Part shown: piece after piece, positions 3,869 to 60,313 of the stretch
Layout of the letters: each line of letters opens with the position of its first letter
How positions within the stretch are numbered: the stretch's first letter is position 1
NCBI RefSeq assembly: GCF_000010345.1
Contig: NC_009663.1
Span: forward strand, 2,108,001-2,172,000
Origin: Sulfurovum sp. NBC37-1
Lineage (GTDB): Bacteria; Campylobacterota; Campylobacteria; Campylobacterales; Sulfurovaceae
Direction: 5' to 3'
DNA: 64,000 nucleotides
Made by a program: the position numbers and the translations under genes
The notes under the pieces: generated by a model
What the model was told of the DNA's origin: nothing
The model's input: only the letters and a program-made list of their open reading frames with translations
Databases searched by the model: none

Positions 3869-4528
3869 TTACCTCTTCCCTAAACGAGGGCATTTTTCTG
3901 GTTTTTGACTATCAAATCTTTTAATAACCTTTCCATGAATGTCCACTATGCCTCTGTAACGATACTTTGTACACATTCCTGTATCATTAATCAACTGATA
4001 GTCCCACCTCACAATATAGAAATCATGCTCTTTTTTGTAGCTATAGCCTAATTTTGTTCCGCTCAGATAGAACCACATTTGCAGCTTAGCAGGGGTATCT
4101 ATTAGACCCAGAAAATGTTTGAGTTCACTTATTTGAGTAATGGCAAAGGACTCTCCACGACTATCAATGTATCTCACTGTATAAAAACCGCCAAACATCA
4201 TACCGTATGAATACGCATGTAATTTTTTCATAAGTTTATCCCACGAGGTTTTTCTGATACGCTTATTGCTATAGTTATTTATGGCAGCATCTATAGTGAT
4301 ATCTCCTTTTGTTCCGTATTTAATAACTATCACTGGAGTAGACCCATGTCTTACAATCTCAAAATAGCGTACATTCTTACCCAATCCAAAATCACTTAAA
4401 TGATACTCACTTAACTTTTTAAACTTTGTCTCACCACTGTCAAGCATAGGTTGCTGACACCCTAAAAATATAAAAAGACTCATAAACACCAACAAGCTTC
4501 TATGTAAAATATTCTGATAATTTCTCAT
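3869..4528 (-). CDS. 'IDTPAE' family lipoprotein
   Basis: 219 residues. The N-terminus LLVFMSLFIFLGC ends in a lipobox (Cys24), so unlike its neighbours this paralogue is predicted to be lipidated. Shared features are 'YHLSDFGLGKNVRYFEI', 'YIDSRGESFAI' and 'FLGLIDTPAKLQMWF'. The ATG at 4528 overlaps the TGA of the preceding frame (ATGA), indicating coupling even though that upstream gene is frameshifted. Function unknown. Confidence 0.65.
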   Translation of the reverse strand: MRNYQNILHRSLLVFMSLFIFLGCQQPMLDSGETKFKKLSEYHLSDFGLGKNVRYFEIVRHGSTPVIVIKYGTKGDITIDAAINNYSNKRIRKTSWDKLMKKLHAYSYGMMFGGFYTVRYIDSRGESFAITQISELKHFLGLIDTPAKLQMWFYLSGTKLGYSYKKEHDFYIVRWDYQLINDTGMCTKYRYRGIVDIHGKVIKRFDSQKPEKCPRLGKR

Positions 4529-5180
4529 TGATATACTCCATCTACTATATTTTGCCCAGGATGAATACAGCTTACCTGACCTTTTTTAGCTATACTCACT
4601 TGCTTATAACTGACAATTTTACCTTTTTTATTAACTATAGCTTTATCGATCACTTCTCTATACTCTTCACAAATCTCTGCTATTTTTCCATATCCTTTGG
4701 ATGTTTTACGATACTGTTTTCCCTCATGCTTGCTGTGAAGCCACAAGATCAACTGAGCTTCTGCCGGAGTATCTATCTCTCCCATATAGCCGATCACATC
4801 TACGATCTCGTTCATTCGCAGTATCTTTCCAGTGGTATCAATGATAAAAGCATTGGAAATCTCTACTGAACTTTTGAAGTCCTGTGAATATTACCATTTT
4901 TTGATAGGTTGGGTGCAGCTTTTTGAAACCTTTTGACCAACTTTGAATCCAGGAGATTAAGTGATGTTTTATAAAATTTCATTTCAACAGTTGGTTTATT
5001 GTATTTTTTATAGTTATCATAGGTGTCATAACATCTGATCTCCATCGCTACAATATCATCTCTAAGATGAAAATCACTTGCTGAGTATTTGTAAATATTT
5101 TGTAGACTTTTCCATTGTATCTCTTTGGCATGAAGCTCTGCCATTGCCCATATTAAAAACACTAATCCAATAATTCTCAT
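4525..5180 (-). pseudogene. Frameshifted 'IDTPAE' family gene
   Basis: Two consecutive minus-strand frames make one family member. The first (ATG at 5180, RBS AAGGA, signal peptide MRIIGLVFLIWAMAELHA) runs to a TAG near 4863. Just before that stop, a +1/-1 change of frame near 4870-4890 gives 'SSVEISNAFIIDTTGKILRM' followed by 'YMGEIDTPAEAQLILWL', which aligns with the intact 390-residue paralogue ('GNAFFIDTEGKMF...'). The full product would be about 217 residues. Either a real single-base indel has inactivated it or the base call is wrong; the sequence cannot say which. Confidence 0.7.
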
Positions 5181-5190
5181 AAGAGTATCC

Positions 5191-5598
5191 TTAGTATTCA
5201 CGACGCTTCAGCTCACGACACGTATTATCTATAGCATCACAATTTAATATATTGTATTCATTTCGTAACGGCAATACTCTTTTTGGGTTATAATAATATG
5301 TAGCCTCACCACCACTACCATCAGGCATAGGCAATCCGCCAACCACCTGAACCCAAGTAAATACAGCCACTTCTTTACCCACGTATTTTGCATCCAGATA
5401 ACTCATATTTTTCCCATTAAGCGTAATTGGCTCACCTACGCTCCCATCAGCTTTCTTGTACCCATGTGGTACACCATAATGCACTTCATACTCTCCACAT
5501 TTTTCAGGAAGAGAACTCGTATCGACTCTGCTCTTCATATCTGTATTCACGCATCCACCCAATATAATGAACATCACCCCTAAAATAATATTTTTCAT
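5191..5598 (-). CDS. Small lipoprotein of unknown function
   Basis: 135 residues starting MKNIILGVMFIILGGC, a clear lipobox (Cys16). The mature part is hydrophilic, with a glycine-rich 'GGLPMPDGSGGEATYYYNP' stretch and a C-terminal pair of cysteines (LNCDAIDNTCREL) that may form a disulfide. It lies 4 bp downstream of the 5'-nucleotidase gene, so the two are probably co-transcribed. I do not recognise the family. Confidence 0.6.
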   Translation of the reverse strand: MKNIILGVMFIILGGCVNTDMKSRVDTSSLPEKCGEYEVHYGVPHGYKKADGSVGEPITLNGKNMSYLDAKYVGKEVAVFTWVQVVGGLPMPDGSGGEATYYYNPKRVLPLRNEYNILNCDAIDNTCRELKRREY

Positions 5599-5602
5599 TA
5601 TT

Positions 5603-7159
5603 TTAATGTATAACCATTATTCTGCCATCATTATTGCCTGGCGTTAACTCTTTATGCTCAGATACCTCTTCTGCCATGATAGAATAGAAAGTTGCATAGG
5701 TATTTTGTGCATCGGTGCCATACTTAGTAAACCAGTAATATCCGTCACCGCCTTTGAGTGCGATGAATGAATTGGTCAAGACTGTATACTCTTTTTCAGG
5801 CTCTATATCTACCCATTTTCCATTTTGAAGAACTTTGGCTTCGGCAACACGTTCCCCTTTTTGGATTATTTTTTCATTTTCTATTTTTTGTATTTTGTTA
5901 GGGAGCTTAACTGTATATTTCAATCCGGAAACCTGCATAAAACCACCCAACTTATACTGTGCGGCACTGTGTTCGAGTATCTCTAAAATATATTTCCCTT
6001 TCATCGTCAGCAAATACGCATAATTGCCAAACTCGTCTATCTCTTTGAGCATAGTGTTGCTGATATTTCCTTTTGGATAGATCTTTTTACCCCTGAATGC
6101 CCCTGCATTGTTAAGGACCATGTCTACTTTGTATTTCTTTCGCATAAGATCATTTACCATATCTGCTACCACAGATTCACCTCTGCGTGTCACCTTGGAG
6201 TCCATCACCCACTCTTTTTTGGTCTGACCCAAGACCAGAGTTTTAGGGAGTTTTGATTTAAACTGCAAAAGTTTTTTTTCTACACCAGCATCTGCAATAT
6301 ATTTTGAAGTTACAGGGATCTTGGTCATACGTATATCGTGGCTTAAGACCTTATTGTTCTCATCCAGCGGAATGTCAACTTTGACCACTTGTGAGCCCTG
6401 TTCACCCCCATTGACAATGGCTATTTTGCCTATGTGTCCTATCTTTTTTATATAGGCATGGGAGTGACCACCAAAGATCACATCTATCCCTTTAACCTGT
6501 TTGGCCAATGCCCTGTCCTCCTTGTACCCTATATGAGAAACTAGAACAATAACATCTACACCTTTGTTTCTGAGTACTTTGACCATCTCCTTCGCCATCT
6601 CTACGTTGCTGCCTTTAAAACGAATCCCTTTGGCCGAACTGGCATCGAGCAGACTTTCCGTAATGAGAGAGAAAAATCCAACCTTCACGCCATCGATATC
6701 TTTGATAAGATAGTCTTCACATTTACCCTGTAACTTTGACTCAGACACATCAAGGTCACTGCAAAGTGTACTAAAGCTTGTCCCCTCCAAAGCCTCTGCC
6801 AGGACATCAGTACCTTTGTCAAACTCATGGTTCCCGAGAGCCAGTATTTCATAGCCTGCCGCAGACATCATCCCCAGTATTGCCTTACCTTTATAGACAT
6901 GAAAATAACGGTTCATCAAATCATCACCGGCAGAGACTATTACAGTATTGGGATTGTCCTTTTTAAGTTGCTTATACAAAGTAGCTAAATGACTGATCCC
7001 GCCCATCTCCACCTTCTCACGCTTTCCGTCTCCATCAATATCGACCTTTTGAATGGACGGCTCCAGCATCCCCTGCAAGTCCGCTGTTCCTACAATGCTG
7101 ATGGTTTTTCCATAGAGCAGAGCCAGACATAAAGTTATCAGTAAAAATAGAGTTTTCAT
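5603..7159 (-). CDS. Periplasmic 5'-nucleotidase / 2',3'-cyclic phosphodiesterase (UshA/CpdB type)
   Basis: 518 residues from the ATG at 7159, preferred over an in-frame GTG nine bases upstream because it starts the signal peptide MKTLFLLITLCLALLYG. The N-terminal metallophosphoesterase domain shows the first metal ligand region 'IVGTADLQGML', then 'SAGDDLMN', 'ALGNHEFDKG' and 'VIFGGHSHA'. The C-terminal 5_nucleotid_C domain has 'NNAGAFRG' and 'LKGGDGYYWF'. Such enzymes hydrolyse extracellular nucleotides in the periplasm. The gene heads the minus-strand run of exported proteins. Exact substrate preference cannot be read from sequence. Confidence 0.9.
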   Translation of the reverse strand: MKTLFLLITLCLALLYGKTISIVGTADLQGMLEPSIQKVDIDGDGKREKVEMGGISHLATLYKQLKKDNPNTVIVSAGDDLMNRYFHVYKGKAILGMMSAAGYEILALGNHEFDKGTDVLAEALEGTSFSTLCSDLDVSESKLQGKCEDYLIKDIDGVKVGFFSLITESLLDASSAKGIRFKGSNVEMAKEMVKVLRNKGVDVIVLVSHIGYKEDRALAKQVKGIDVIFGGHSHAYIKKIGHIGKIAIVNGGEQGSQVVKVDIPLDENNKVLSHDIRMTKIPVTSKYIADAGVEKKLLQFKSKLPKTLVLGQTKKEWVMDSKVTRRGESVVADMVNDLMRKKYKVDMVLNNAGAFRGKKIYPKGNISNTMLKEIDEFGNYAYLLTMKGKYILEILEHSAAQYKLGGFMQVSGLKYTVKLPNKIQKIENEKIIQKGERVAEAKVLQNGKWVDIEPEKEYTVLTNSFIALKGGDGYYWFTKYGTDAQNTYATFYSIMAEEVSEHKELTPGNNDGRIMVIH

Positions 7160-46297: not shown

Positions 46298-46884
46298 GTT
46301 TCATTCTTTATATAGAGATAGTTTCTCTGGTTTTTTTGTATTATATCATAACTCATTTGACCTTCCACCTGCGCTATTTCGTCAAACACACGGCTTCCTT
46401 TGTAAAAAAGATATTCTGTATGTTCATCACTGATGCGAGACGTAAGGTCAAGCAGAAGCTTTGTATTGGTCACTGCCCTCGAGCTGATCATGTCGAAGGC
46501 TTCATATACTACGTTCTCGACCCGTTTGGCCTCCACCGTCACATTCTTCAACCCCAAATCGATGGCAGCATACTTCAAAAAAGAGACGCGTTTTTTCAAC
46601 GGTTCCGCCAACACCACTTCGGTTTCCGGCAGTGCAATGGCAAGCACCAGTCCGGGAAAACCCGCGCCCGTCCCAACATCCAGCAGTGTTTTGGGTATTC
46701 TGATGAAAGTCAGAGGGTAAAGCGAATCGACAATGTTGTCGTAGATCGCCACTACCGATCTCGCGCCGGTAAGATTATGCACCTGGTTCCATTCATGCAG
46801 CAGTACGGCAAAGCCTTCAAGTTTACCGATGATGCCATCATCCAGAACGATACCTTCGGCATTCAGATACTGCAACAGCTCCAC
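46294..46884 (-). CDS. rsmG: 16S rRNA m7G527 methyltransferase
   Basis: 196 residues from GTG 46884. The SAM-binding site is '[21 protein letters not shown]' in two parts ([12 protein letters not shown] and LVLAIALPE). 'NLTGARSV' and '[15 protein letters not shown]' also match RsmG. It methylates G527 of 16S rRNA. Its start shares a base with the stop of the lasso B1 gene, so the lasso operon flows straight into it. Confidence 0.92.
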
Positions 46885-47159
46885 TACGCTACCACCTCTA
46901 CCAGTCCGCTCTCCACCAGCTTGTGCACAAAGGCTTCAAGGTCTTGTTTAATGACCTCTTCTTCCACATCATACTGCTCCAGCAGTGACTCGAGTACTTC
47001 CTGAAGGTTCTTTTTCTGCTGCATTGCCACCCATATGTCCGTGCCCACGGCATCCAGACCAAAGTAGTTTTCTGAGTTCATATCGAGCAGTACCATTTCT
47101 CCGTCCACTTCCTGGGCAAACACCATATCTGCAAATTTTACTTTTTTATTTAGATCCAT
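46884..47159 (-). CDS. Lasso-peptide B1 protein: PqqD-like RiPP recognition element
   Basis: 91 residues of the PqqD fold: '[33 protein letters not shown]' (beta strands, split here as [21 protein letters not shown]) then '[23 protein letters not shown]'. In lasso systems this B1/RRE protein binds the precursor leader and presents it to the B2 peptidase. It is preceded immediately by a 48-codon ORF (TAA-ATG contact) and followed by rsmG. A PqqD-like chaperone is also known in HPr-rel-A systems, but the B2 and cyclase genes nearby support lasso. Confidence 0.88.
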
Positions 47160-47309: not shown

Positions 47310-47759
47310 TCACCACCCAAACACCGACAACACGGTAAACGCTTCATGTCCTCTTCCTCCGGTAACAATGGCATCTCCGCACTGTGCCCAAGCATGGGCT
47401 TTCATTTTAGCTTCATTCTCTTCGTCTTTGGCTACCCCAAGGTAGAACACTCCGGATATCCCACGTTTTTGCAGCATTTTCTGGGCCGTGAGTGACTGTG
47501 TCAGGCAGGCACTTTCCCAGGGGGTGTAGGCTGAAGCCCTGACGATAGCTTGGCCTACCAGACGGGCCGTATGCACTTCCTCTTCACTTAAGGGTGTAAG
47601 CTTTTCCACTGTTGTTTTATGTTCCAAAGAACAGGTCAACCGTTTAAACGAGACAGTCAGGATCGCCGCTCGTATCTTCCCCAGTGTCACACAGGCTTCG
47701 ATAAAAAGCTTTTTCTCTTCTGACGGCAACTGCGTGAATTTTTTAAATTTTCGGATCAT
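47310..47759 (-). CDS. Lasso-peptide B2 protein: leader peptidase
   Basis: 149 residues. The conserved transglutaminase-like core has Cys in 'TPWESACLTQSLTAQKML' (~93) and His in 'MKAHAWAQCGDAIVTGG' (~125), as in lasso B2 proteins (McjB C-terminal domain). It should cut the precursor two residues past a conserved Thr, before the ring Gly. The B1 and B2 domains are separate here, as in non-proteobacterial-type clusters. It follows the HepT gene by 12 bp; no strong ribosome site is seen before its ATG. Confidence 0.88.
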   Translation of the reverse strand: MIRKFKKFTQLPSEEKKLFIEACVTLGKIRAAILTVSFKRLTCSLEHKTTVEKLTPLSEEEVHTARLVGQAIVRASAYTPWESACLTQSLTAQKMLQKRGISGVFYLGVAKDEENEAKMKAHAWAQCGDAIVTGGRGHEAFTVLSVFGW

Positions 47760-47771
47760 TAAAAAAGTGCG

Positions 47772-48209
47772 CTATTTTTGGTATTGCTCAGTGTATTTCA
47801 AAGTGATTTTAGCCAATTCGATTAAATCTGGTGTCAGTTTCATGATATCTTCAAACAGTTCCTGAAGATAATCATCTATATATTCGTGTGCAATGGCGTT
47901 GCGTAGATCCTTGATCTCTCTGATCGTTTCAATGTTCTCAAAAAGTCCGCGCTTGTGGGCATTATTGACCGTATCTATCAGTGTGCCCTGATTTTCAAAC
48001 TCAACAGCATCGATAGCACGGAACATCTTTCGTACCAAAAAATCGATCATTCTGCCAAAGCGACTGCATAAGTTCTCATAACTGTCAAACTCGTCAACTT
48101 CATAACTTGGTTTCAGTCCGATTTTAGTAGTTTCTTCAAAAGAGTGCTCCAGCCAAAACAGCTGTTTTTCCAGCAACACTCTGTTCACAAGCAGGTTTTC
48201 TATACTCAT
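47772..48209 (-). CDS. HepT-like HEPN toxin
   Basis: 145 residues, all helical. The 'RNAIAHEY' motif matches RX4HXY, the active site of HEPN ribonuclease toxins and the Tyr that MntA modifies. In type VII systems HepT is an RNase silenced by polyAMPylation by its partner. Its start overlaps the partner gene by 4 bp. The pair is inserted between the lasso exporter and B2 genes, on the same strand. Confidence 0.82.
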   Translation of the reverse strand: MSIENLLVNRVLLEKQLFWLEHSFEETTKIGLKPSYEVDEFDSYENLCSRFGRMIDFLVRKMFRAIDAVEFENQGTLIDTVNNAHKRGLFENIETIREIKDLRNAIAHEYIDDYLQELFEDIMKLTPDLIELAKITLKYTEQYQK

Positions 48210-48523
48210 AGCTCTACCGCCTGAGGAAAGATCATTTGTAAAAAAGCTGTTTGCATTGTACCACTATCTACAATAATATCCATTTTCTGTTCTCCAAACA
48301 TTTCAAAAAAATGCCAGCGTATCTTGCTAAGATCTTTACGGGTAATATTTTTAGAAATAATGAGAATATCAATGTCGCCACCCTTTTTCACCATATCCGT
48401 TCTCGAACCAAAAAGATATAGCTTTGCATTTGGGTCCATAGACAATACAGAGGCTTTAAAATTATCCACCTCTTTTTGTGTCAAACGAATCTGCTTGCGA
48501 TCTTTATTATTTATTCTTTTCAT
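48206..48523 (-). CDS. MntA-like nucleotidyltransferase antitoxin
   Basis: 105 residues of a minimal nucleotidyltransferase: 'YLFGSRTDMVKKGGDIDILII' contains GSX10DXD (Gly-Ser, then Asp-Ile-Asp). MntA enzymes add AMP to the HepT Tyr and so neutralise it. It overlaps hepT and lies 25 bp behind the lasso ABC gene. The presence of both motifs supports an active type VII toxin-antitoxin module. Confidence 0.85.
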   Translation of the reverse strand: MKRINNKDRKQIRLTQKEVDNFKASVLSMDPNAKLYLFGSRTDMVKKGGDIDILIISKNITRKDLSKIRWHFFEMFGEQKMDIIVDSGTMQTAFLQMIFPQAVEL

Positions 48524-48548: not shown

Positions 48549-50315
48549 CTATCTTAGATCAAAATCCTCTTTGATCAAACCTTTGTCTTGAAGCGATCTA
48601 TAGGACCCTTCAAACTTCACCTTGCCTTCTTCAATCAGGTAAATATGCTCCGCCTGCCTGATGGTCGTTGTCCTGTGGGCAATAATGATGGTCGTTCTGC
48701 CCTCAAGAAACGGTGCCAGTGTTTCGTAAAGATGGAACTCGGTCGCATTGTCCAGTGCGGAGGTTGCTTCATCAAAAATGACGATCTTCGGGTCGGAAAG
48801 TATAAGTCTGGCAATTGCAAGTCGCTGACGCTGCCCGCCGGAGAGACGGATACCATTCTTGCCTATACGTGTCTCCAGGCAGTCTTCGAGATGACGTACA
48901 AATGTTTCGAGCTGTGCCGCCCTGAGTGCCTCATAAATTTCTTCATCGCTCTTTTCACTCGAAAGCGTAAGGTTCATCCGAATGGTATCGTTGAAAAAGA
49001 GTGCCTGCTGCAGCATCAGCGCCACATTTTCACGCACTACAGGTAGGCCTATCTGCTCTATGGGGACATTGTCGTAAAGTATCTCACCTTTGTGCGAAGG
49101 GTAGAGCCCCACCATGATCTGCGCAATAGTCGTTTTTCCGCTGCTGCTGGGACCTATGATTGCAATCTTCTGCCCCGCTTCCACTTTCATCGAAACATCG
49201 TACAGTACCTGCCTGCCGTTCCCGTAGGAAAAACTGATGTTCTTCAACGCAACGGATGTCGTTTCCCTGCCCTCAAAAGGATCCACCTCATGCGGATAGT
49301 AAGGTTCCTGCGAGAGGGCAAGCAGGGTATTGATACGCTCAAGCACCGGTTTGCTACTCCGGTAGGAGATCATCAGTCCCATCAGCTGCTGTACCGGCTG
49401 CACCAGTATAGCGAGGTAAAAAAGGAAAGCGATCATCATTCCAATGCTCAAGTCCGAATAGGCTACGGCGGCGATGCCTAATGCTCGGAAAATGTCCACT
49501 ACAGTATTGGTCAAAAGTGTGGACGAACTGTGTGCAACTGCTGCCTTGTACCCATAGTCAAGCGATGCTTTTTTTATCTTTTTCGCGCGATTTTGCAGCA
49601 GGTCAAAAAAACTTCGCTCCTGATTACTCGTACGCACCTGAATGAAAAGTTCAAGAGTCTCGTTGAGCAGCTCATGGTAGAGCTCATACGCTTCATGCTG
49701 ACGGCGCAACAGTTCTCCCGTTTTACGCCCGAGCAGTCTTGAAAACCCCAGGAAAAGAGGGTTGAGCAGGAAGACCAGCAGCGCCAGCACCCAGTTCATC
49801 CAGAGCATCACTGCAGCAATGCCTGCCAGCATGAGTGAAGCACTCAGAACCGTCGTCACCATCTGTCCTGCAAAGCCACTGACCTTCTCCACATCCTGTA
49901 CCGTTTTGGAAGCGATGCCTCCCGACTTGAGCGCTTCGTACTCGGAAAGCGAGACACGTTCCAAATGGTGCAAAATGCGGTGTCTCAGCAGATAACTTAT
50001 CTTTTGGGTGATCCTGGTAGCAAAAAAGGTTTTTTTGTTGTTGAAGAAAAAAGCAGAAAACCGCAGGAGCAGCACCGTTGCAAGTATAACAGCTATGTAA
50101 ACCCATGTTTCATGCGTACCAAAGAGCGCGGAGATCGTCTCCGTCATTTTACCCGGGTGCTCCAGCAACACTTCATCGATGAGGAGCGGGATGAGCATGG
50201 GGATAGGCAGTAAAAGCAATGTCGCCAGAATGCCGTACACATTGGTACGCCAGAAGTCACCCTTTTGCGTTTTGATCTGGCGATAGAGTGTTTTGAAACT
50301 GTATGGGCCTGTCAT
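48549..50315 (-). CDS. Lasso-peptide D protein: ABC exporter (fused permease-ATPase)
   Basis: 588 residues: about six membrane helices (~20-310), then the ATPase with Walker A 'IIGPSSSGKTTIAQ' (~375), signature 'LSGGQRQRLAIARLIL' (~480) and 'KIVIFDEATSALDNAT'. There is no N-terminal C39 peptidase domain, which fits lasso export, where B2 has already cut the leader. It likely exports and gives immunity to the mature lasso peptide. It lies 55 bp behind the kinase gene. Confidence 0.88.
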   Translation of the reverse strand: MTGPYSFKTLYRQIKTQKGDFWRTNVYGILATLLLLPIPMLIPLLIDEVLLEHPGKMTETISALFGTHETWVYIAVILATVLLLRFSAFFFNNKKTFFATRITQKISYLLRHRILHHLERVSLSEYEALKSGGIASKTVQDVEKVSGFAGQMVTTVLSASLMLAGIAAVMLWMNWVLALLVFLLNPLFLGFSRLLGRKTGELLRRQHEAYELYHELLNETLELFIQVRTSNQERSFFDLLQNRAKKIKKASLDYGYKAAVAHSSSTLLTNTVVDIFRALGIAAVAYSDLSIGMMIAFLFYLAILVQPVQQLMGLMISYRSSKPVLERINTLLALSQEPYYPHEVDPFEGRETTSVALKNISFSYGNGRQVLYDVSMKVEAGQKIAIIGPSSSGKTTIAQIMVGLYPSHKGEILYDNVPIEQIGLPVVRENVALMLQQALFFNDTIRMNLTLSSEKSDEEIYEALRAAQLETFVRHLEDCLETRIGKNGIRLSGGQRQRLAIARLILSDPKIVIFDEATSALDNATEFHLYETLAPFLEGRTTIIIAHRTTTIRQAEHIYLIEEGKVKFEGSYRSLQDKGLIKEDFDLR

Positions 50316-50355: not shown

Positions 50356-50374
50356 CAAGTAGGTTAAAACCTAC
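50356..50374. repeat. Short TAGG palindrome at the end of the kinase gene
   Basis: GTAGGTT-TTAA-AACCTAC-like palindrome covering the stop codon of the HprK-like gene. It is a small member of the TAGG-edge family. Confidence 0.5.
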
Positions 50375-51264
50375 AGTTCCCGGCTTTTCTTTACGATGGC
50401 TTCATAGACTTCAGGCAGGCGTTCCTTGTCCCACGGTACCAAAACACGGTAAACGGGCACCTGCATTGCCATCTGTGTAAAAAAATTGAAACGCTCTTTT
50501 TTCATAAATGTAAACTTGAGGAAGCTGCTGTAAAGAAAGGCTTTGAACCTTCCGATGCCTTTGGGAACGGTTATTTCAACTGGGGCATCCGGTTCAGCCG
50601 GCTCTAGCTCGAAGAGCGCTTTTATGGGAGCGGGTTTCCTAGCGAAGTTCTCTGCACGATGGCCAAGAGTCTCAGGTTGACGGTAGGGGCGGTGGTAGGG
50701 AAATGAAGGGTAAGCGATATACTTTCCGTTCTCTTCTCTGACCGGCAGCGTATCATCCGCATAAAGGGTATGCCCCTGCCTGATGAAATAGTCCGTAAGT
50801 ATCGATTTCCCGCCAAAGGAGGGTGCGGAAAAAAAGACTGGCCCTCCGCCTATCTCCACGGCGCCTACATGCAGCATTTTATAACTTCTCTCCAGCTCGA
50901 GTACTATCGGGAAAAAGGTATGATAGATCCAGAACTGCAGCAGTTTGGGGGTGAACGCCTTCCCCTTCCCATACAGAATCCGTCTGTGTTCACTCTCCCA
51001 TACCAGGCTCAAAACATTCTCTACCTCCAGCCCCCAGTCATCATCTTTTCCTATCTTCTCAGGCGGCGTATTACTCAAATAGTAGCATCCCCGTTCTGAC
51101 AGATATACCAGTGCACTTCTCCTCTTAAACCCTTCATAAGTGCCGATCTCTCTTACTTCGACCCTATTGCCACTGCCGTTCTCCGGAGAGGGAAAATCAA
51201 AAGAATCATACACTTTCTGCAACTGCGGCTGGTCAGAAAAGAAGAAACGGTGCGCATGTATCAT
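50371..51264 (-). CDS. HPr-kinase-like protein of the lasso cluster
   Basis: 297 residues from ATG 51264, which overlaps the cyclase stop (ATGA). A P-loop variant 'FFSAPSFGGKSILTDYF' (~145) and 'YADDTLPV' (~170) match HprK/PqqD-associated kinases, though the first Gly of the loop is Ala. Homologues in lasso clusters (paeninodin type) phosphorylate a Ser at the peptide C-terminus. The core here ends in Trp, so any phosphorylation must be at another Ser/Thr, or the activity differs. Confidence 0.8.
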   Translation of the reverse strand: MIHAHRFFFSDQPQLQKVYDSFDFPSPENGSGNRVEVREIGTYEGFKRRSALVYLSERGCYYLSNTPPEKIGKDDDWGLEVENVLSLVWESEHRRILYGKGKAFTPKLLQFWIYHTFFPIVLELERSYKMLHVGAVEIGGGPVFFSAPSFGGKSILTDYFIRQGHTLYADDTLPVREENGKYIAYPSFPYHRPYRQPETLGHRAENFARKPAPIKALFELEPAEPDAPVEITVPKGIGRFKAFLYSSFLKFTFMKKERFNFFTQMAMQVPVYRVLVPWDKERLPEVYEAIVKKSREL

Positions 51265-52880
51265 AAGCTCTCTTCTCCCTTTGCCTCTTCCCTCCCGAAC
51301 CGATGATACCTGTACCAATACTCGACATTGACAATGATCCACAAACGGGAAACATATCGCAGGTTCCCGTTTCGGTACTTTTCAAGGCACCACTCGATGT
51401 CGGCCCGGCTGATCAGCCCGAGCCTGACAATGTGAGGCTCTCCAAGCAACGCGTTAAGGTCTATCGCCTCCATCTGCTGGGAGAGGAGTTCCGAAAATTC
51501 CGCTTTGTCTCTGCGCTGGTTGATCTTTTCGGGCAATATGCCTTTCATCGCCTTTCTCAATATCCGCTTGATCGTCCGGTTGGCGTATTTCATCTCCGGC
51601 GGAAGCGAGACCGCAAACTCCACCAACTCTTTGTCAAAGAAAGGGTGACGGTACTCAATGCCAAAATGACGCTCGGCACAGTGGAAAATATTGCCATCCA
51701 TAACAGTGCTGTGGTATGGAGAGGAAACCATATCGACCGCATCTTTGAATGCAGGGTTTGTGATGCCCGCTTCTTCTGGCAGGCCATCCATTTCACACTG
51801 CTCCCAAAAACGGTTTTTTCTTTCATTTCTTCCCAGAAGTGTTTTGAACCGATGCACGTTCTTCTGCCCTAGAAGCGGTGCAAGCACATAAGATTTAAAT
51901 GCACTCCCGGGACGGCGGTGCGTTCTCATTTCACTGAAGGCTGCGGAAAGTTTTCCTCTTGCGAACAGGTCATACAGCACATAGGGAGTGCCGGTAAACA
52001 GGTGGTCGCCCCCCTGGCCGCTGACCACAACTTTTTTTCCGTCTTCTCTCATTTTTTCAAGCATGGGAAGCAGCATAGCAAAGGTCAGGCCTATGGGCCA
52101 GTGGGGGCTTAAAGCATAAAGCGACTCCAAAGAATACTTTTGACGATAATCCAAACTGTCCACAGGGATCTTTTGATGGTTTACAGGGTACTCTGCCAGC
52201 ACGGCATCCACATACGCACCCTCATCGCAGGCAAGCAGTCCGAAATCCATCGAATAACTGTCGATCTGCCCGGAGCCTTTCTTCAGCGCCAGCAGGGAAA
52301 CGACCGAAGCGGAATCAAGTCCTCCGCTCAGTTCAAAGGCAGTCTCTTCCGGCGAAGAGGTTGACCTCTCGACTGCCTGTTCAAACAGTGCTTCTAATCT
52401 TTGTGCCGCCACCTTTTCATCGATGCCGTAGTCTATCTCGATTTTTTCGGGAAACCAGTAGCGTTCTATCTGCTTTTCCCCGTTCTCGATGGTCATACTG
52501 TGCCCGGAAGGCAAACGGTAAATCCCTTCATACATCGTCTCATGATAGTCTACTGCAAAACATTGCATCATGGTTTGCATGGAACGGAGATTCGGTTTTT
52601 TGGAAACGGAAGGGAGGGAGAGAAGTTCTCCTATATCCGAGGCGAAACGGTACCCCTCCGGGGTTTTCGTATAGTACAGCGGCGCTATCCCGAGTGGGTC
52701 GCGCGCGCAGAATGTCTGTTTGCTTTCAGTGTCGTAAAAGGCGAAAGCGAATGCTCCTTTTAATTTGGCCGGTAATCTTTTGCCATAGCGATAGTAGCTT
52801 TCTTTAATAGTCCTTTCCTGATCGGAATGGCTTTTTTCACCATTCCCATTCACTAAATAAGCAATAAAAATACTATTCAA
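51261..52880 (-). CDS. Lasso-peptide C protein: asparagine-synthetase-like macrolactam cyclase
   Basis: 539 residues. A shortened glutaminase-like region ('LKGAFAFAFYD', 'FCARDPLGIAPLYY' near 57) leads to the ATP-pyrophosphatase domain with 'FELSGGLDSASVVSL' (~195) and 'VSGQGGDHLFTG' (~290). The cyclase adenylates the ring Asp side chain and joins it to the N-terminal Gly. The frame starts at TTG 52880 right after an in-frame TAG, so the first ~55 residues normal for AsnB-like proteins, including the Cys nucleophile, are absent. It is 34 bp behind the precursor gene. Confidence 0.88.
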   Translation of the reverse strand: MNSIFIAYLVNGNGEKSHSDQERTIKESYYRYGKRLPAKLKGAFAFAFYDTESKQTFCARDPLGIAPLYYTKTPEGYRFASDIGELLSLPSVSKKPNLRSMQTMMQCFAVDYHETMYEGIYRLPSGHSMTIENGEKQIERYWFPEKIEIDYGIDEKVAAQRLEALFEQAVERSTSSPEETAFELSGGLDSASVVSLLALKKGSGQIDSYSMDFGLLACDEGAYVDAVLAEYPVNHQKIPVDSLDYRQKYSLESLYALSPHWPIGLTFAMLLPMLEKMREDGKKVVVSGQGGDHLFTGTPYVLYDLFARGKLSAAFSEMRTHRRPGSAFKSYVLAPLLGQKNVHRFKTLLGRNERKNRFWEQCEMDGLPEEAGITNPAFKDAVDMVSSPYHSTVMDGNIFHCAERHFGIEYRHPFFDKELVEFAVSLPPEMKYANRTIKRILRKAMKGILPEKINQRRDKAEFSELLSQQMEAIDLNALLGEPHIVRLGLISRADIEWCLEKYRNGNLRYVSRLWIIVNVEYWYRYHRFGREEAKGEESL

Positions 52881-52914
52881 CTATATCACATTATCTTACT
52901 GTTTTTTTTACGAA

Positions 52915-53094
52915 TTACCAGCCACCTGGATCTGACGGAACATTGGCACTTTGCCCACCACTATCAGTACCGCCTATTGTGGATCCTTTTGTTGCCATTC
53001 TCACATTCGCTATTATTTCTATTTTCGGAGAAGAATACGGTTTCTTTTGTCTCTCTGTTTCTCCTGAGAAATCCGAATGGTTTTTTTCTATCAT
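52915..53094 (-). CDS. Lasso-peptide precursor (A protein)
   Basis: 59 residues. The leader has 'YSSPKIEIIANVRMAT', matching the lasso rule Y-x2-P-x-L-x3-G-x5-T with Ile for Leu and Ala for Gly. Thr35 is at -2 to a cut after Lys36. The 23-residue core starts 'GSTIGGTD', so Gly1 and Asp8 can form an 8-residue ring, and ends 'SDPGGW'. AGGAAAA lies ~7 bp before the ATG. The cyclase, kinase, exporter, B2 and B1 genes follow on the same strand. I see no second precursor gene. The core is Gly/Ser-rich with no bulky residue except Trp at the end, so the steric plug is uncertain. Confidence 0.9.
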   Translation of the reverse strand: MIEKNHSDFSGETERQKKPYSSPKIEIIANVRMATKGSTIGGTDSGGQSANVPSDPGGW

Positions 53095-53137: not shown

Positions 53138-54579
53138 ACCTACTCCGGCAACACAACCGGCTTAAAGTCTTTTTTCCTAACATCACCCCTGACCCATCTG
53201 AAGGTCCTGGTATGGTTGCCGTCCATTGAGAGGTTGGCGTATTCGAGTTCATCCACACTGTAGGTCTGGTGGTTGTCCACATCGACTAGGATAAATCTCT
53301 TCTTCATCTTTTTGTCTGTTCCGATCTCTATGTATCTTACGTTTCCGTTCTCTTTGATATAGTTCACTTTTATGGCATCATCAAGCTTGATGTGGATCTC
53401 TGCGTTTGAGAGATCGACTGTTTTCTGGTTTTTGACCTGGAAGGTCCAGACGGCTCTTTTGTCTGCTCTTGCCTTTTTGTATTTTCGGTAGTCACTCCAG
53501 TAGTCACCGGCATCACCCTCTTCCCAGTCGTAATGGGGGAAGACCACCTGAAGTACTGCAGGACCGTATGCAGCGACATCATGTCTGTCTTTTTTGGCTT
53601 TACTTTGTTTAAGCTCGCCGAAGACACCTGCACTGTTATGTTCATAGACGCTACCGTCCTCTGCGGTGGCGGATACTCTCGTACGCATGTACCATCCTGC
53701 TTTTTTGGCTTTTTGTGTTTTTTGTACGCTTTTACCACTTCCTGCCTGGAGCATGGTACCGCCTATCATCAGCAGCATTGCGAGGACAAGAAGTATCTTT
53801 GTTTTTTTGTTTTGCATTGTTTGCTCCTTTACTTGTTCATCAGCGGGTAAGCGAAATGGTTGACATAATTATCGGTCTGGTTCTTCTCTATCTTGATGAA
53901 GAATCCTTCCATTGGTTGAATGGAACCATCAAAGCCCGGGGTTGCAGGGTCTACTGCCATGTAACCGCTCACAGGGCCTGTTTTATTACTGTCATGTTTA
54001 TAGACGATCTTGTTGATATAGTTGTCATTGGCTGTATTGCCCATCTCATTGTAAGACGTTCCACCCGCATTGTGCTTGAAATAGAGATCAGAGAGCTGAA
54101 ATGCGTACGGGAAGGGGTTGCCTGCCATATATTTCTTGTAATCGACCGTATTAGGGTCACTGACTTCATTTTTGGGCAGCAGGTATTCGTGTACTTCTGT
54201 AAAGTCGGGATTAGTGATACCTACTGATGAAGAAGTAACCGTTGAAGCGGGACTCAGGTTCGAAAGTGTTTTATCGATCGTGATGTTTTTTTCATTTCCT
54301 GCCCCTCCGAGGTCTGCAATGATCCAGTAGCCTTTTCCTGGCACTACCGTGTCTGTGGCAGCAAGCTGTGCTTTGGTAGTATTTTTATGGCCGCTGTTGA
54401 TCTCATACTGGTCTGTTCCGCTCTGCTTGAACACGACCCAGTCGGTACCGTAGGCACCCAAGTCGCCGCCAAGAAGGTCTTCGATATGGTTCGAACCCGT
54501 GGCGCAACAGAAGCTGACGATCTTCCATTGGAAGTGTGTGAGTGTGGTTCGGTTTTTCCCGCAGAGGAATTCGCGGTAG
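53138..54579. repeat. 1442-bp direct repeat, copy 1
   Basis: Matches 57238-58679 at a constant 4100-bp offset with one mismatch that I can see (54058 G versus 58158 A, changing Thr to Met). It covers the whole 225-residue gene and the C-terminal ~250 residues of the surface protein. Homology stops sharply at both ends. Confidence 0.95.
53140..53817 (-). CDS. Secreted protein of unknown function, copy 1
   Basis: 225 residues identical to the copy at 57240-57917. Signal peptide 'ILLVLAMLLMIGGTMLQAGS', then a basic region and a beta-rich domain with 'YGPAVLQVVFPHYDWEEGDAGDYWSDYRKYKK' (read in pieces: VVFPHYDWEEGDAG, DYWSDYRKYKK) and 'TFRWVRGDVRKKDFKPVVLPE'. It lies 11 bp downstream of the large surface protein and ends 45 bp before the lasso precursor. 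It is probably a partner or processing factor of the surface protein, inferred only from the conserved pairing. Family not recognised. Confidence 0.7.
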   Translation of the reverse strand: MQNKKTKILLVLAMLLMIGGTMLQAGSGKSVQKTQKAKKAGWYMRTRVSATAEDGSVYEHNSAGVFGELKQSKAKKDRHDVAAYGPAVLQVVFPHYDWEEGDAGDYWSDYRKYKKARADKRAVWTFQVKNQKTVDLSNAEIHIKLDDAIKVNYIKENGNVRYIEIGTDKKMKKRFILVDVDNHQTYSVDELEYANLSMDGNHTRTFRWVRGDVRKKDFKPVVLPE

Positions 54580-56528
54580 GCGGCTTCGTGGTTGCCCGTG
54601 ACTTCGTCCTGAATATTTCCGCCATCGTCTGGGTCAGGATCTGTTATGTAACCATTTACGTGATTATAATCATCATCGTTATAGTACCATGTTGGCATAC
54701 CGTTATCTCGTACAGTCGGGTTGGGCGTACAAACAGGCTGATTTCTACCTTCTTCGCAGTCGGTGTAGCCGTCGTTGTCGCTGTCGCTGTCGAGGAAGTC
54801 GGCAGTATTGTCTCCATCTTTATCCGGTGGGATCAGGCCGTTACTGCCCACGACGCCTGCAGTATTATGATCATATTGATCTGCCAAGCCGTCACCATCG
54901 TCATCTGTCCAAGTAGAATCAGGTGCATCGTAGCCTGAAGTTGGCTGCGCTTCTACATTGTCCGGAATACCGTCGTTATCACTGTCGAGGTCGAGATAGT
55001 CATCGATTCCATCACCGTCACTGTCTACAGCATACTGGTTGGCATCAGGACAACTTGCACCATCATTATTACCGGTTGGAACCGAACGATAGAGAAATGT
55101 TGCGGTCGGAGTAGCAGTATCATAATCGACAATCTCATAAATGTATCCATTATTATTGGCTGCAAACAATTTACTGTTGTCTGCTATAAATGTTGCACCC
55201 CATCCTTTACTCAAATCAGCCCCATCCGGCGTTGTAACAGTTAGCTTAACATTGGTACTGGTATTGTTGCTAAGATTTATTTTATATAGTCTTGTATTAT
55301 CTGCACTTCCTGATGTCTGACTAGTTGATCGTAACCCGTATGCCATAACTGTACCGCTTGAATCATCTATGGCAAAGTCAGCAGCATTTTCCGATCCAGA
55401 AGTAAATGTTATCTCACTCAGTATGTCACCACTTTTTATCCACTTGTATAACTTAGTTGTACTTTTGCGTGCATAAAGTGCTCCATTATAAAAATCTGCC
55501 GCATAGCTGTCGATTTTGCTGTTATTGATCGTATTGGCTTTTTTAATCTTGCCACTGTAACGATCTATCTCTATCACATCATTTTTTACAAGTGAAGTAC
55601 CATAATCATCGGTCGTAGCTGCACGCACCGATGCGTAGAGTTTACCGCTTTGATCATCAAAGCCCATCGCATTGATACTTGCTTTCTGCCCTCCTATAGG
55701 TAAATAAACCTCATTTTCAGGATCAAACACATTTAATACACCATCGATCATATGGAAGAAACCATAAGCACAGTTACCAGCACCCTGTATCTCCACGGCA
55801 TCCAAGATTCCGTCATTGTCATCGTCGATGTCCCAAAAATCCGCTACGCCATCACCGTCGGTATCTTTCGCATGAAAATCTATATTGTCCAAAAGGACAT
55901 GCTGCTCTGTCGGATTATTCCGCGGTACATTAGTTCCTGAAGTATATGTAACATTGAGTTCAGTGATATACTCATTGCTAAACTGCATCGTGACATATCC
56001 ATCTGGATCATCATCATCAAGAGGCCCTGACTGGTCACTTTCATAGTCTCCTGCACTGTTTTCATCAATATGCGAACCTTTTGCCACATTGTCAGGCTCA
56101 TATACATTCCCATCATCATCTGCCGCTTTGATAATAACGCGATCCTCAAATTTAGCACCCAAAAACTGGTCCGCATAATCAATATCTCGAATTCGCAGTT
56201 TGGTAATCTGTATAGGCTGGGAAAAATACAATGTCGTCGTTACGCTTTCCGTTTTGGTGTTAAAATTCACATCAAGATCCAGCGATGTATCGACACTGTC
56301 AGTTATATCATTAGGCTCATTATTTTCGAACCTACCCGTGTTTCCGGTAATATCAACATCCACATCGATGTGACTACCATCCACATTGGTATAATTTTTT
56401 GAAAGATCGCCGGCATCCCATCCTCCCTGGCTACTCCAATCCAGTGTCGCGGCAAATACCGAGCTTCCAGCCAGTGTCATTCCCATAACTAATAATCGTT
56501 TCAGTATTGTTTTGTATGTATTTTTCAT
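53829..56528 (-). CDS. Large TSP3-repeat surface protein (copy 1)
   Basis: 899 residues from ATG 56528 (AGAGG upstream). A signal peptide (to ~28, SSVFA) leads to an N-terminal beta domain with 'FEDRVIIKAADDDGNVY', a DUF6923-like propeller segment (~265-495), and calcium-binding thrombospondin type-3 repeats ('DSDGDGIDDYLDLDSDNDGIPDNVE', seen in pieces such as DSDNDGIPDNVEAQP). The C-terminal domain carries 'FLCGKNRTTLTHFQWKIVSFCC' (Cys-rich, in pieces) and is shared with the other copy. It is likely an extracellular adhesin. A candidate c-di-GMP riboswitch lies 60 bp upstream. Confidence 0.8.
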   Translation of the reverse strand: MKNTYKTILKRLLVMGMTLAGSSVFAATLDWSSQGGWDAGDLSKNYTNVDGSHIDVDVDITGNTGRFENNEPNDITDSVDTSLDLDVNFNTKTESVTTTLYFSQPIQITKLRIRDIDYADQFLGAKFEDRVIIKAADDDGNVYEPDNVAKGSHIDENSAGDYESDQSGPLDDDDPDGYVTMQFSNEYITELNVTYTSGTNVPRNNPTEQHVLLDNIDFHAKDTDGDGVADFWDIDDDNDGILDAVEIQGAGNCAYGFFHMIDGVLNVFDPENEVYLPIGGQKASINAMGFDDQSGKLYASVRAATTDDYGTSLVKNDVIEIDRYSGKIKKANTINNSKIDSYAADFYNGALYARKSTTKLYKWIKSGDILSEITFTSGSENAADFAIDDSSGTVMAYGLRSTSQTSGSADNTRLYKINLSNNTSTNVKLTVTTPDGADLSKGWGATFIADNSKLFAANNNGYIYEIVDYDTATPTATFLYRSVPTGNNDGASCPDANQYAVDSDGDGIDDYLDLDSDNDGIPDNVEAQPTSGYDAPDSTWTDDDGDGLADQYDHNTAGVVGSNGLIPPDKDGDNTADFLDSDSDNDGYTDCEEGRNQPVCTPNPTVRDNGMPTWYYNDDDYNHVNGYITDPDPDDGGNIQDEVTGNHEAAYREFLCGKNRTTLTHFQWKIVSFCCATGSNHIEDLLGGDLGAYGTDWVVFKQSGTDQYEINSGHKNTTKAQLAATDTVVPGKGYWIIADLGGAGNEKNITIDKTLSNLSPASTVTSSSVGITNPDFTEVHEYLLPKNEVSDPNTVDYKKYMAGNPFPYAFQLSDLYFKHNAGGTSYNEMGNTANDNYINKIVYKHDSNKTGPVSGYMAVDPATPGFDGSIQPMEGFFIKIEKNQTDNYVNHFAYPLMNK

Positions 56529-56589
56529 TAATTGCCTCTTCTCTGCAAGCAAATTATACTTAATACAGCGTATAAATTTTTTCTATTTA

Positions 56590-56768: not shown

Positions 56769-57152
56769 TTACAAAGGAGGTTCACCAAATTTGTTGTCCG
56801 GGTCTTTTGGCTTGGGTTCTATCCACTCCACATCCGCACCGCCTATAAGCTGGCTTCGTTTGACCGAAGGGGTTTCATCTTCCGCTTCCTCCTCATCATT
56901 TGCATCAGACATCTTCGGATTCTCAGCAGAAACACTCTTTTCTTTAGTCTCAGATACAACATCCTCTACAGGCTCTGACCTTTCATCTGCTTTTGCAGTA
57001 TTTACCTTGGCGGCAGATACTTTTCGTTCTTGTTTTACCGTTTTATGCGTTACAGCATGTTTTTCACTCTCTGCGCCACTGTACTTAAAGTAACCGATCA
57101 CAGCCAACACAAGGAGAATCACTCCATAGATCAGCATTCTTTCTTTTGGCAT
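56769..57152 (-). CDS. Membrane-anchored low-complexity protein
   Basis: 127 residues: one N-terminal helix ('MLIYGVILLVLAVIGYF'), then a hydrophilic Lys/Glu-rich extracytoplasmic tail ('DANDEEEAEDETPSVKRSQ', 'IEPKPKDPDNKFGEPPL'). It lies between the two surface-protein units and is not part of the direct repeat. Not recognised. Confidence 0.55.
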   Translation of the reverse strand: MPKERMLIYGVILLVLAVIGYFKYSGAESEKHAVTHKTVKQERKVSAAKVNTAKADERSEPVEDVVSETKEKSVSAENPKMSDANDEEEAEDETPSVKRSQLIGGADVEWIEPKPKDPDNKFGEPPL

Positions 57153-57237: not shown

Positions 57238-58679
57238 ACCTACTCCGGCAACACAACCGGCTTAAAGTCTTTTTTCCTAACATCACCCCTGACCCATCTG
57301 AAGGTCCTGGTATGGTTGCCGTCCATTGAGAGGTTGGCGTATTCGAGTTCATCCACACTGTAGGTCTGGTGGTTGTCCACATCGACTAGGATAAATCTCT
57401 TCTTCATCTTTTTGTCTGTTCCGATCTCTATGTATCTTACGTTTCCGTTCTCTTTGATATAGTTCACTTTTATGGCATCATCAAGCTTGATGTGGATCTC
57501 TGCGTTTGAGAGATCGACTGTTTTCTGGTTTTTGACCTGGAAGGTCCAGACGGCTCTTTTGTCTGCTCTTGCCTTTTTGTATTTTCGGTAGTCACTCCAG
57601 TAGTCACCGGCATCACCCTCTTCCCAGTCGTAATGGGGGAAGACCACCTGAAGTACTGCAGGACCGTATGCAGCGACATCATGTCTGTCTTTTTTGGCTT
57701 TACTTTGTTTAAGCTCGCCGAAGACACCTGCACTGTTATGTTCATAGACGCTACCGTCCTCTGCGGTGGCGGATACTCTCGTACGCATGTACCATCCTGC
57801 TTTTTTGGCTTTTTGTGTTTTTTGTACGCTTTTACCACTTCCTGCCTGGAGCATGGTACCGCCTATCATCAGCAGCATTGCGAGGACAAGAAGTATCTTT
57901 GTTTTTTTGTTTTGCATTGTTTGCTCCTTTACTTGTTCATCAGCGGGTAAGCGAAATGGTTGACATAATTATCGGTCTGGTTCTTCTCTATCTTGATGAA
58001 GAATCCTTCCATTGGTTGAATGGAACCATCAAAGCCCGGGGTTGCAGGGTCTACTGCCATGTAACCGCTCACAGGGCCTGTTTTATTACTGTCATGTTTA
58101 TAGACGATCTTGTTGATATAGTTGTCATTGGCTGTATTGCCCATCTCATTGTAAGACATTCCACCCGCATTGTGCTTGAAATAGAGATCAGAGAGCTGAA
58201 ATGCGTACGGGAAGGGGTTGCCTGCCATATATTTCTTGTAATCGACCGTATTAGGGTCACTGACTTCATTTTTGGGCAGCAGGTATTCGTGTACTTCTGT
58301 AAAGTCGGGATTAGTGATACCTACTGATGAAGAAGTAACCGTTGAAGCGGGACTCAGGTTCGAAAGTGTTTTATCGATCGTGATGTTTTTTTCATTTCCT
58401 GCCCCTCCGAGGTCTGCAATGATCCAGTAGCCTTTTCCTGGCACTACCGTGTCTGTGGCAGCAAGCTGTGCTTTGGTAGTATTTTTATGGCCGCTGTTGA
58501 TCTCATACTGGTCTGTTCCGCTCTGCTTGAACACGACCCAGTCGGTACCGTAGGCACCCAAGTCGCCGCCAAGAAGGTCTTCGATATGGTTCGAACCCGT
58601 GGCGCAACAGAAGCTGACGATCTTCCATTGGAAGTGTGTGAGTGTGGTTCGGTTTTTCCCGCAGAGGAATTCGCGGTAG
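57238..58679. repeat. 1442-bp direct repeat, copy 2
   Basis: Second copy of the repeat described at 53138-54579. The left edge is in the space before the 127-residue gene. The right edge falls within the 'RGKNR/FLCGKNR' region, where the two surface proteins diverge at once (…AAYREFLCG versus …VGYREFLCG). Confidence 0.95.
57240..57917 (-). CDS. Secreted protein of unknown function, copy 2
   Basis: Identical in all 225 residues to the protein at 53140-53817, and likewise 11 bp downstream of a TSP3 surface protein. The perfect DNA identity shows recent duplication or ongoing gene conversion rather than selection on protein alone. Downstream it is followed by the 127-residue gene instead of lasso genes. 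Confidence 0.7.
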   Translation of the reverse strand: MQNKKTKILLVLAMLLMIGGTMLQAGSGKSVQKTQKAKKAGWYMRTRVSATAEDGSVYEHNSAGVFGELKQSKAKKDRHDVAAYGPAVLQVVFPHYDWEEGDAGDYWSDYRKYKKARADKRAVWTFQVKNQKTVDLSNAEIHIKLDDAIKVNYIKENGNVRYIEIGTDKKMKKRFILVDVDNHQTYSVDELEYANLSMDGNHTRTFRWVRGDVRKKDFKPVVLPE

Positions 58680-60313
58680 CCTACTTCAGATGTGTCTCCT
58701 GTTTCATTGAAGAGATCATTTGATGGGTCATCGACATTGCCGTTTGATACTGAGGCACTGTTGGTTGTATCCCAGTAGACATCACCCAGGCTTCCCTGTG
58801 CCCAGCTGACAAGGCCTGTCTTTGTCGAAGCGGTATCGCCCGGGGTGATCGGACAGCCCGTGGCAACACTGTTACCCTCTTCACAGTCGGTGTAGCCGTC
58901 GTTGTCGCTGTCGCTGTCGAGATAATCGGGGATACCGTCCCCATCAGTATCCGAAGGTGTCACTGCTGTGCCTCCGCTGTCGGTGTCGTACTGGTCCGCC
59001 AGCCCGTCACCGTCGGCATCAGCCCAGGCAGAATCCGGTTCGTCATAGGTGGCAGTCGGCTGTGCTTCCACGTTATCCGGGATGCCGTCGTTGTCGCTGT
59101 CGAGGTCGAGGCAGTCAATAATACCATCGTTATCGCTATCCAGTTCATTTACATAGTTGATGGTAAGATTCGCCTCATTAAAAGTTCCCGTATCTTGACT
59201 TGCGTCATCACACATATGCAGCGTCCAAGTACCCTGCGGATCCTCTCCATTGAACGCACTTAACGCCTGCTCGGGTTGTCTGGGCAAAAAAGAGCCCAAT
59301 GTAAAATCCGTCGTATCCCCTACAATGGAGGTTGTCGCCGCATCGAAAAAGGTTGCACTCAAATTATTGTGACTACCACCTTCATTTCGTATCAGATCAA
59401 CCGCTGTACCAAAGGGAGAAATCAACTGAACGATCAGATCATTTCTCCACGTGTGCGCAATATCTACTTTGATCGTTACATCATTAACTATACCGCTATC
59501 TTGTATATCGAACGTTCTATCCAGACAGGTATTAGGATACCCATTATCAGGGATCGTTCCCGATGCTGTATTTGATTCCGTTACAGCAGGTGTACTCTCA
59601 TCCACATCCAAAATCCCGTCGTTGTCATCGTCGATATCTTTGACATCTGCAATACCATCACCATCTGAATCAAGTGCATCAAAAGTGATATTGGCCAAAT
59701 AAATACCCTGATTATTAGGATCACTTTGAGCATTGCTACCATTCGTATAATCAAAAGAGACCTCGGTTACATAAACATCTTCAAATGCCACCGTTACGTA
59801 ACCATCTGGATCATCATCATTAAGAGTAGTACCGTCTGATTCATAATCTCCGGGACCATTTTTATCAATATGATCACCCAGAGTTTCACTACTTGGATAA
59901 ACCGTTGCCCCGGAAGTATCTTTTGCAGTAACGATCACTCTATCGTCAAAGTCAGTAGAAGGATTTCCTGAATCTATATCTATCCAGCGCAAAAAGCTGA
60001 TTTTTACAGGAGAAGAAAAAGTGATTGTTGTTTTAATTTTTTGTGTATTAGAACTATAATTTACGTAGTAGTCCAATCCATAGGTACTATTAACTGAAGG
60101 AACACCACTGTTATATCTATCTGTGTCCTCTGTCATCGTAACATCAATATTGACCTTTGAACTATCAACATCCGTGTAAGATTGGGTCAAGGAACCTGCC
60201 GGAGACCATCCCACTGTATTCCAGTCCAGTGTCGCAGCAGATACCGAGCTTCCAGCCAGCATCATTCCCAGAAACAAAAACTGTTTCAGTATTATTTTGT
60301 ATGTTTTTTTCAT
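57929..60313 (-). CDS. Large TSP3-repeat surface protein with P-domain (copy 2)
   Basis: 794 residues. A signal peptide (SSVSA, to ~28) leads to an N-terminal beta domain similar to copy 1 ('FDDRVIVTAKDTSG'), then a proprotein-convertase P-like domain (~250-390: 'TFDIQDSGIVNDVTIKVDI', 'HTWRNDLIVQLISPFGTAVDL', 'NGEDPQGTWTLHMCDDA'). TSP3 calcium repeats follow ('LDSDNDGIPDNVEAQP'), then the shared C-terminal domain. Copy 1 has a DUF6923-like segment where this one has the P-domain. A c-di-GMP-type riboswitch precedes it. Confidence 0.8.
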   Translation of the reverse strand: MKKTYKIILKQFLFLGMMLAGSSVSAATLDWNTVGWSPAGSLTQSYTDVDSSKVNIDVTMTEDTDRYNSGVPSVNSTYGLDYYVNYSSNTQKIKTTITFSSPVKISFLRWIDIDSGNPSTDFDDRVIVTAKDTSGATVYPSSETLGDHIDKNGPGDYESDGTTLNDDDPDGYVTVAFEDVYVTEVSFDYTNGSNAQSDPNNQGIYLANITFDALDSDGDGIADVKDIDDDNDGILDVDESTPAVTESNTASGTIPDNGYPNTCLDRTFDIQDSGIVNDVTIKVDIAHTWRNDLIVQLISPFGTAVDLIRNEGGSHNNLSATFFDAATTSIVGDTTDFTLGSFLPRQPEQALSAFNGEDPQGTWTLHMCDDASQDTGTFNEANLTINYVNELDSDNDGIIDCLDLDSDNDGIPDNVEAQPTATYDEPDSAWADADGDGLADQYDTDSGGTAVTPSDTDGDGIPDYLDSDSDNDGYTDCEEGNSVATGCPITPGDTASTKTGLVSWAQGSLGDVYWDTTNSASVSNGNVDDPSNDLFNETGDTSEVGYREFLCGKNRTTLTHFQWKIVSFCCATGSNHIEDLLGGDLGAYGTDWVVFKQSGTDQYEINSGHKNTTKAQLAATDTVVPGKGYWIIADLGGAGNEKNITIDKTLSNLSPASTVTSSSVGITNPDFTEVHEYLLPKNEVSDPNTVDYKKYMAGNPFPYAFQLSDLYFKHNAGGMSYNEMGNTANDNYINKIVYKHDSNKTGPVSGYMAVDPATPGFDGSIQPMEGFFIKIEKNQTDNYVNHFAYPLMNK

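Follow-up and report, generated by a model that had tools for sequence, protein, structure and literature searches.

Two kinds of described peptide systems come closest to the locus analysed here. In the paeninodin type (PadeK, ThcoK, SyanK), a precursor, B1, B2, a cyclase, a transporter and an HprK-like kinase are encoded in one operon, the core ends in Ser, and the H-K-D-D residues are essential in the kinase (PMC9266682). The LPP kind (linear polyphosphorylated peptides; LppA, LppK, LppB), described as restricted to Bacillota, has the leader YxxPxVLxHQxIxFETxxS, a separate PqqD-type protein, an SpI-like leader peptidase and an HprK-like kinase, yields a linear product without a cyclase, and is frequently found in the company of lasso clusters. 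Phosphorylation of an internal Ser by LppK was shown in 2026, and the enzyme accepted only Ser (PMC13381572).

We analysed a 64,000-nucleotide stretch (hereafter the window; G000:C1:2108001-2172000) of the 2.56 Mb, single-contig genome of Sulfurovum sp. NBC37-1, in which an HprK-like kinase, a lasso cyclase and a lasso-type precursor are encoded in one minus-strand operon. The operon shares with the paeninodin type its gene content and the H-K-D-D residues of its kinase, but its core ends in PGGW instead of Ser, its kinase falls outside the clade of the neighbouring lasso-operon kinases, and its precursor combines a YxxP leader with a Pro-rich/Trp tail. With the LPP kind it has in common the YxxP leader, the separate PqqD-type protein, the HprK-like kinase and, if our reading is correct, an internal phospho-Ser; it differs in that the leaders read YxxPKI.. 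(window) or YxAPxLxxLG (related Sulfurovum peptides, whose leaders are twin-arginine-like and whose tails are rich in Pro and Trp), and in that a cyclase is present. HprK-related kinase A (TIGR04352) and ScmC (TIGR04249) show weak profile similarity near the P-loop, far below curated cutoffs. No lasso or kinase-PqqD peptide system described in Sulfurovum was found in the open-access papers searched. Judged from its sequence, the window operon is a variant of the phosphorylated lasso kind that lacks the paeninodin-type terminal Ser, and this lack probably reflects a change of kinase and tail, not a decaying gene.

A lasso peptide operon that includes an HprK-like kinase

The minus-strand genes follow each other in the order precursor, cyclase, kinase, ABC transporter, MNT/HEPN pair, B2 and PqqD-like B1:

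53094-52915, minus strand: lasso-type precursor A, 59 aa (MIEKNHSDFSGETERQKKPYSSPKIEIIANVRMATKGSTIGGTDSGGQSANVPSDPGGW), with AGGAAAA ~10 nt upstream of its ATG
51261-52880, minus strand: lasso cyclase C, asparagine-synthase like, short type, TTG start (NF033535 1.4e-68, Asn_synthase 4.7e-45)
50371-51264, minus strand: HprK-like kinase of the clade called K1 below, 297 aa from its ATG (homologue alignment, tree, PDB profile matches)
48549-50315, minus strand: ABC exporter D (Pfam ABC_tran 1.4e-29, ABC_membrane 3.9e-26)
48206-48523, minus strand: MNT nucleotidyltransferase, within the operon (Pfam NTP_transf_2 1e-5; also in L042)
47772-48209, minus strand: HEPN/HepT-like protein, partner of the MNT protein (Pfam HepT-like 2.2e-4, just under cutoff; also in L042)
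47310-47759, minus strand: leader peptidase B2 (NF033537, lasso_biosyn_B2, 1.8e-29, above cutoff)
46884-47159, minus strand: PqqD-type recognition protein B1, adjoining rsmG (Pfam PqqD 1.6e-18, above cutoff)

The cyclase match to NF033535 lies below that model's cutoff and the match to Pfam Asn_synthase above its own, and the SGGLDS motif is kept. N-terminal truncation of this protein was considered and ruled out, as the short N-terminus is common to its nearest homologues. The cyclase stop overlaps the ATG start of the kinase (ATGA; TTATGATAC); the kinase open reading frame itself begins upstream at a GTG, giving 323 aa. Both B2 and the PqqD-like B1 that a lasso operon calls for are thus present, and B1 is 80% identical to the rsmG-adjacent PqqD-type protein of L036, a locus at which C and B2 were not found. 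Because the genes are long, syntenic with those of relatives and under purifying selection, chance can be excluded as their origin; a phage origin was also rejected, as viral contigs contain no relative. The MNT/HEPN pair, possibly a toxin-antitoxin system, separates the exporter from B2 in two genomes (window 47772-48523; L042 8718-9505).

The precursor has the sequence features of a lasso precursor (YxxP leader, Thr at -2, Gly1 and an Asp/Glu at 7-9) and can be divided as follows, the ring segment being assigned by the position rule for lasso peptides:

52987-53094, minus strand: leader, with a YSSPKI motif and Thr at -2, homologous to the leader in L033/L094
52918-52986, minus strand: core (GSTIGGTDSGGQSANVPSDPGGW), without a terminal Ser
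52963-52986, minus strand: predicted ring segment G1-D8 (GSTIGGTD)
52918-52941, minus strand: tail VPSDPGGW, of K1 type, containing S18, the likeliest target

The core ends in Pro-Gly-Gly-Trp, as the preliminary description had reported, and its Ser residues (S2, S9, S13 and S18) are all internal. The same description had placed one of them four residues before the Pro, which fits S13 and P17 but not S18, as the last Pro (P20) is two positions further on.

The kinase is intact and belongs to a separate clade

Among 175 genomes of the family, 57 carry a homologue of the kinase; ~60 kinase neighbourhoods were retrieved, and trees were built from the kinases. In a careful tree the window kinase lies within a clade of 31 kinase rows (K1; support 100/99), where it groups with those of L031, L032 and L033 (100/98). 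Apart from those of the window and L032, kinases immediately next to a lasso cyclase are placed outside K1. The window kinase therefore does not share a clade with the kinases of Ser-ending lasso operons (100/99, PadeK being outside the sampling of the tree), and the paeninodin-type kinase assumed in the preliminary description gives way to one whose clade neighbours are not in lasso operons.

The P-loop of the kinase (50803-50826, minus strand; APSFGGKS in the homologue alignment) does begin with Ala, and this had been taken as an oddity and a possible sign of decay. The general P-loop pattern, [AG]x4GK[ST], permits Ala at the first position, and an alignment of homologues has Ala first in 67 of 67 rows, making it a family feature. 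H132, K153, D170 and D171 are invariant in the aligned kinases, the frame is intact, and pN is 0.20 against L032 and 0.17 against L031, its two nearest relatives, whereas pS is saturated at 0.78-0.81. With the catalytic residues kept, Ala present family-wide and pN low against a saturated pS, decay is unlikely; by these measures of conservation the window kinase is not a decaying gene. Pfam Hpr_kinase_C matches the kinase weakly (0.017, under its cutoff); a profile built from relatives of the kinase matches the PDB HPr kinases 2qmh, 1jb1, 3tqf and 1ko7 over the P-loop region.

K1 kinases typically occur with a PqqD protein, a pair of surface proteins and a small peptide whose leader contains YxAPxLxxLG. 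Beside most of them the peptide leader reads RRxFLKKAxYxAPxLxxLGxLxKPT; of four such peptides, two score at or above the threshold of the twin-arginine signal model. Within this Tat-like leader there is also YxxPxL, the motif by which lasso leaders are recognised. Genes for WYMR and repeat proteins, whose products are apparently secreted, are present at most K1 loci, and the window has the following:

53140-53817, minus strand: secreted "WYMR" protein, linked to K1 kinases (no Pfam/NCBIfam match)
53829-56552, minus strand: large secreted protein with DSDxDGxxD repeats and a K1-linked C-terminal domain (neighbourhood linkage)
56769-57152, minus strand: small "GEPP" protein ending in KFGEPPL, present in the K1 subgroup of the window

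The window precursor directly follows the WYMR gene, the slot that the Tat-like peptide occupies in K1 loci. A near-identical direct duplication of ~1.45 kb (53140-54590 and 57240-58690, offset 4100 bases) covers the WYMR gene and the end of the gene for the repeat protein. In relatives (L034, L045, L048, L049, L059), WYMR proteins often have an F(G/D)xxPP-like tail at their C-terminus; in the window subgroup this tail is found on the separate small GEPP protein, and it resembles the FGxPP of peptide cores.

The tail of the precursor goes with the kinase

We compared 28 K1-linked peptides, chosen by leader motif and not by tail (except that of L033, which came to light through its resemblance to the window precursor), with 24 lasso cores. 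Most of these cores come from operons that encode a kinase of the other type; for three of them no kinase of that type is clearly adjacent. None of the K1-linked peptides ends in Ser/Thr, Trp occurs among the final six residues of 22, and PP is present in 24, whereas 14 of the lasso cores end in Ser/Thr, two have Trp in that stretch and one contains PP (Fisher tests: Trp, 3e-7; Ser/Thr, 1e-6; these values count related sequences, ignore kinship and overstate the strength of the difference). Ser is missing from two of the 28 K1-linked cores, which do contain Thr.

The tail VPSDPGGW is identical at 6 of 8 positions to PPSDPSGW, the tail at L031, a locus with a sister kinase; 6e-5 of window-core shuffles (6 in 100,000) reached this match, and the other lasso cores reach at most 2 of 8, the C-terminal 8-mer and motif tests having been devised partly after the fact. 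They were used in place of a whole-core local alignment because shared composition made the latter marginal (3-5% of composition-matched shuffles were as good). There was no sign of recent transfer of tail DNA, the window and L031 tails being alike at 18 of the last 27 bases. Upstream of a further sister K1 kinase (L033; G038, a Nitratifractor MAG) is a peptide (YHPPKLKTIADVRKHTKDFGGSPSDPQGGAWGQ / MKKRVESKKKIYHPPKLKTIADVRKHTKDFGGSPSDPQGGAWGQ) that matches the window precursor in leader (Y..PK..IA.VR..TK) and tail (PSDP..G.W); it has no ring segment, and no cyclase lies between it and the kinase. The nearest relatives of the window cyclase with a precursor in view (L069, L071 and L072; 51-55% identity) act on Ser-ending cores, so the tail appears to go with the kinase and not with the cyclase, an argument that turns on one lasso precursor. 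In the second operon joining a cyclase to a K1 kinase (L032/G103), the contig ends inside the cyclase, with the precursor beyond its end. Two lasso cyclases of different length types occur per cluster in L064, L069, L071 and L072, the first three of which also have two precursors.

Proposed role of the kinase and alternatives

The reading that we favour, and hold slightly more likely than not, is that a lasso operon recruited a K1-clade HprK-like kinase along with the tail motif of that kinase, which would read the tail and phosphorylate an internal Ser. In this scheme B1 would bind the YxxP leader of the precursor, and the kinase would bind the Pro-rich/Trp tail of the linear precursor and phosphorylate an internal Ser before lasso closure, most likely S18 in P-S-D-P, which is the best candidate because it lies inside the part common to K1 peptides. 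B2 would then cleave off the leader, C would close the G1-D8 ring, and D would export the phosphorylated lasso. That the kinase acts on the linear precursor is suggested by analogy with paeninodin (PMC9266682), and that it targets an internal Ser by analogy with LppK (PMC13381572). Of the three options in the preliminary description (an internal Ser/Thr target, another chemistry, or decay), the first appears to fit these comparisons best. Counting against the proposed scheme are the dependence of the tail match on one lasso precursor, the marginal whole-core alignment, the two Thr-only cores, since LppK accepted only Ser, and G085, which has a K1 kinase and WYMR and in which a peptide was not detected.

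The case of G085 would suit a kinase that serves the neighbouring surface proteins (WYMR, GEPP, the repeat protein) and lies among the lasso genes incidentally. At most K1 loci, WYMR and the C-terminal domain of the repeat protein are close by, other-type kinases lack them unless a K1 kinase, its remains or a Tat-like peptide is at the locus, and an FGxPP-like motif is common to WYMR/GEPP C-termini and several peptide cores. We nevertheless find this role doubtful: many FGxPP-type tails contain no Ser/Thr (FGLPPE, FGEPPL), the WYMR and GEPP proteins look secreted and thus away from a cytosolic kinase, the overlap of cyclase and kinase genes couples the latter to the lasso genes, and a peptide-kinase-PqqD cassette occurs without WYMR elsewhere (L168-L170), though with another kinase lineage. 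A paeninodin-type logic with a relaxed site, in which another core Ser/Thr such as S2 or T3 is phosphorylated and the likeness of the tails is coincidental, would accord with the target of LppK, core residue 3, near the leader (PMC13381572). It is nonetheless improbable, as S2 and T3 lie within the ring and the tail resembles those of sister K1 loci specifically, with no such match in the other lasso cores.

That the kinase gene is decaying or inactive would fit the missing C-terminal Ser and the weak Pfam score, and a relative (L175/G136) does contain a broken K1 kinase and cyclase fragments; the intact frame, retained catalytic residues and low pN described above make this very unlikely for the window. 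Hardly more credible is a chemistry other than phosphorylation performed on the tail, which the distant relationship of the family to tested kinases might allow, but against which stand H-K-D-D residues and a P-loop as in those kinases and PDB profile matches that are HPr kinases. Recruitment of a K1 kinase with its tail motif would suggest a division of lasso-tailoring kinases into types that differ in the peptide tails they read, so that clade membership could predict the target of a kinase. It would also suggest that one precursor can unite a lasso ring with a kinase tail.

K1 cassettes and related loci outside the window

Across the 175 genomes, true Tat-like peptides (50 bits or more) were found in 34, all 34 of which have a kinase homologue, compared with 23 of the remaining 141. 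In this survey four genomes with a K1 kinase (the window genome, G103, G038 and G085) yielded no Tat-like peptide. Three of them have other components: a lasso precursor in the window genome, a linear YxxP peptide in G038 and a cyclase in G103. The lack of a Tat-like peptide in the window genome is consistent with precursor A taking its place.

These data point to a cassette of kinase, PqqD protein and peptide in Campylobacterota that has apparently not been described before; for its K1 form this seems to hold in the open-access literature searched. A broader proposal, which we hold tentatively, at a little short of even chances, is that Campylobacterota have an undescribed group of peptides with a Tat-like YxAPxLxxLG leader, an HprK-like kinase, a PqqD protein and Pro-rich/Trp tails read by the kinase, and that the window shows such a tail fused to a lasso ring; the ring, paired with the cyclase, and the tail, paired with the kinase, would then be exchangeable modules of a single precursor.

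At L175 (G136; 4092-6920), WYMR and a Tat-like peptide are followed by a frame-broken K1 kinase and cyclase fragments, and from this arrangement the locus is read as a decayed relative of the hybrid operon. A compact peptide-kinase-PqqD cassette, without WYMR, is present in other families of Campylobacterales (L168, L169 and L170), where the peptides are Tat-like with tails EGGFKG(A/S/V)F and the kinases form a separate lineage in the tree.
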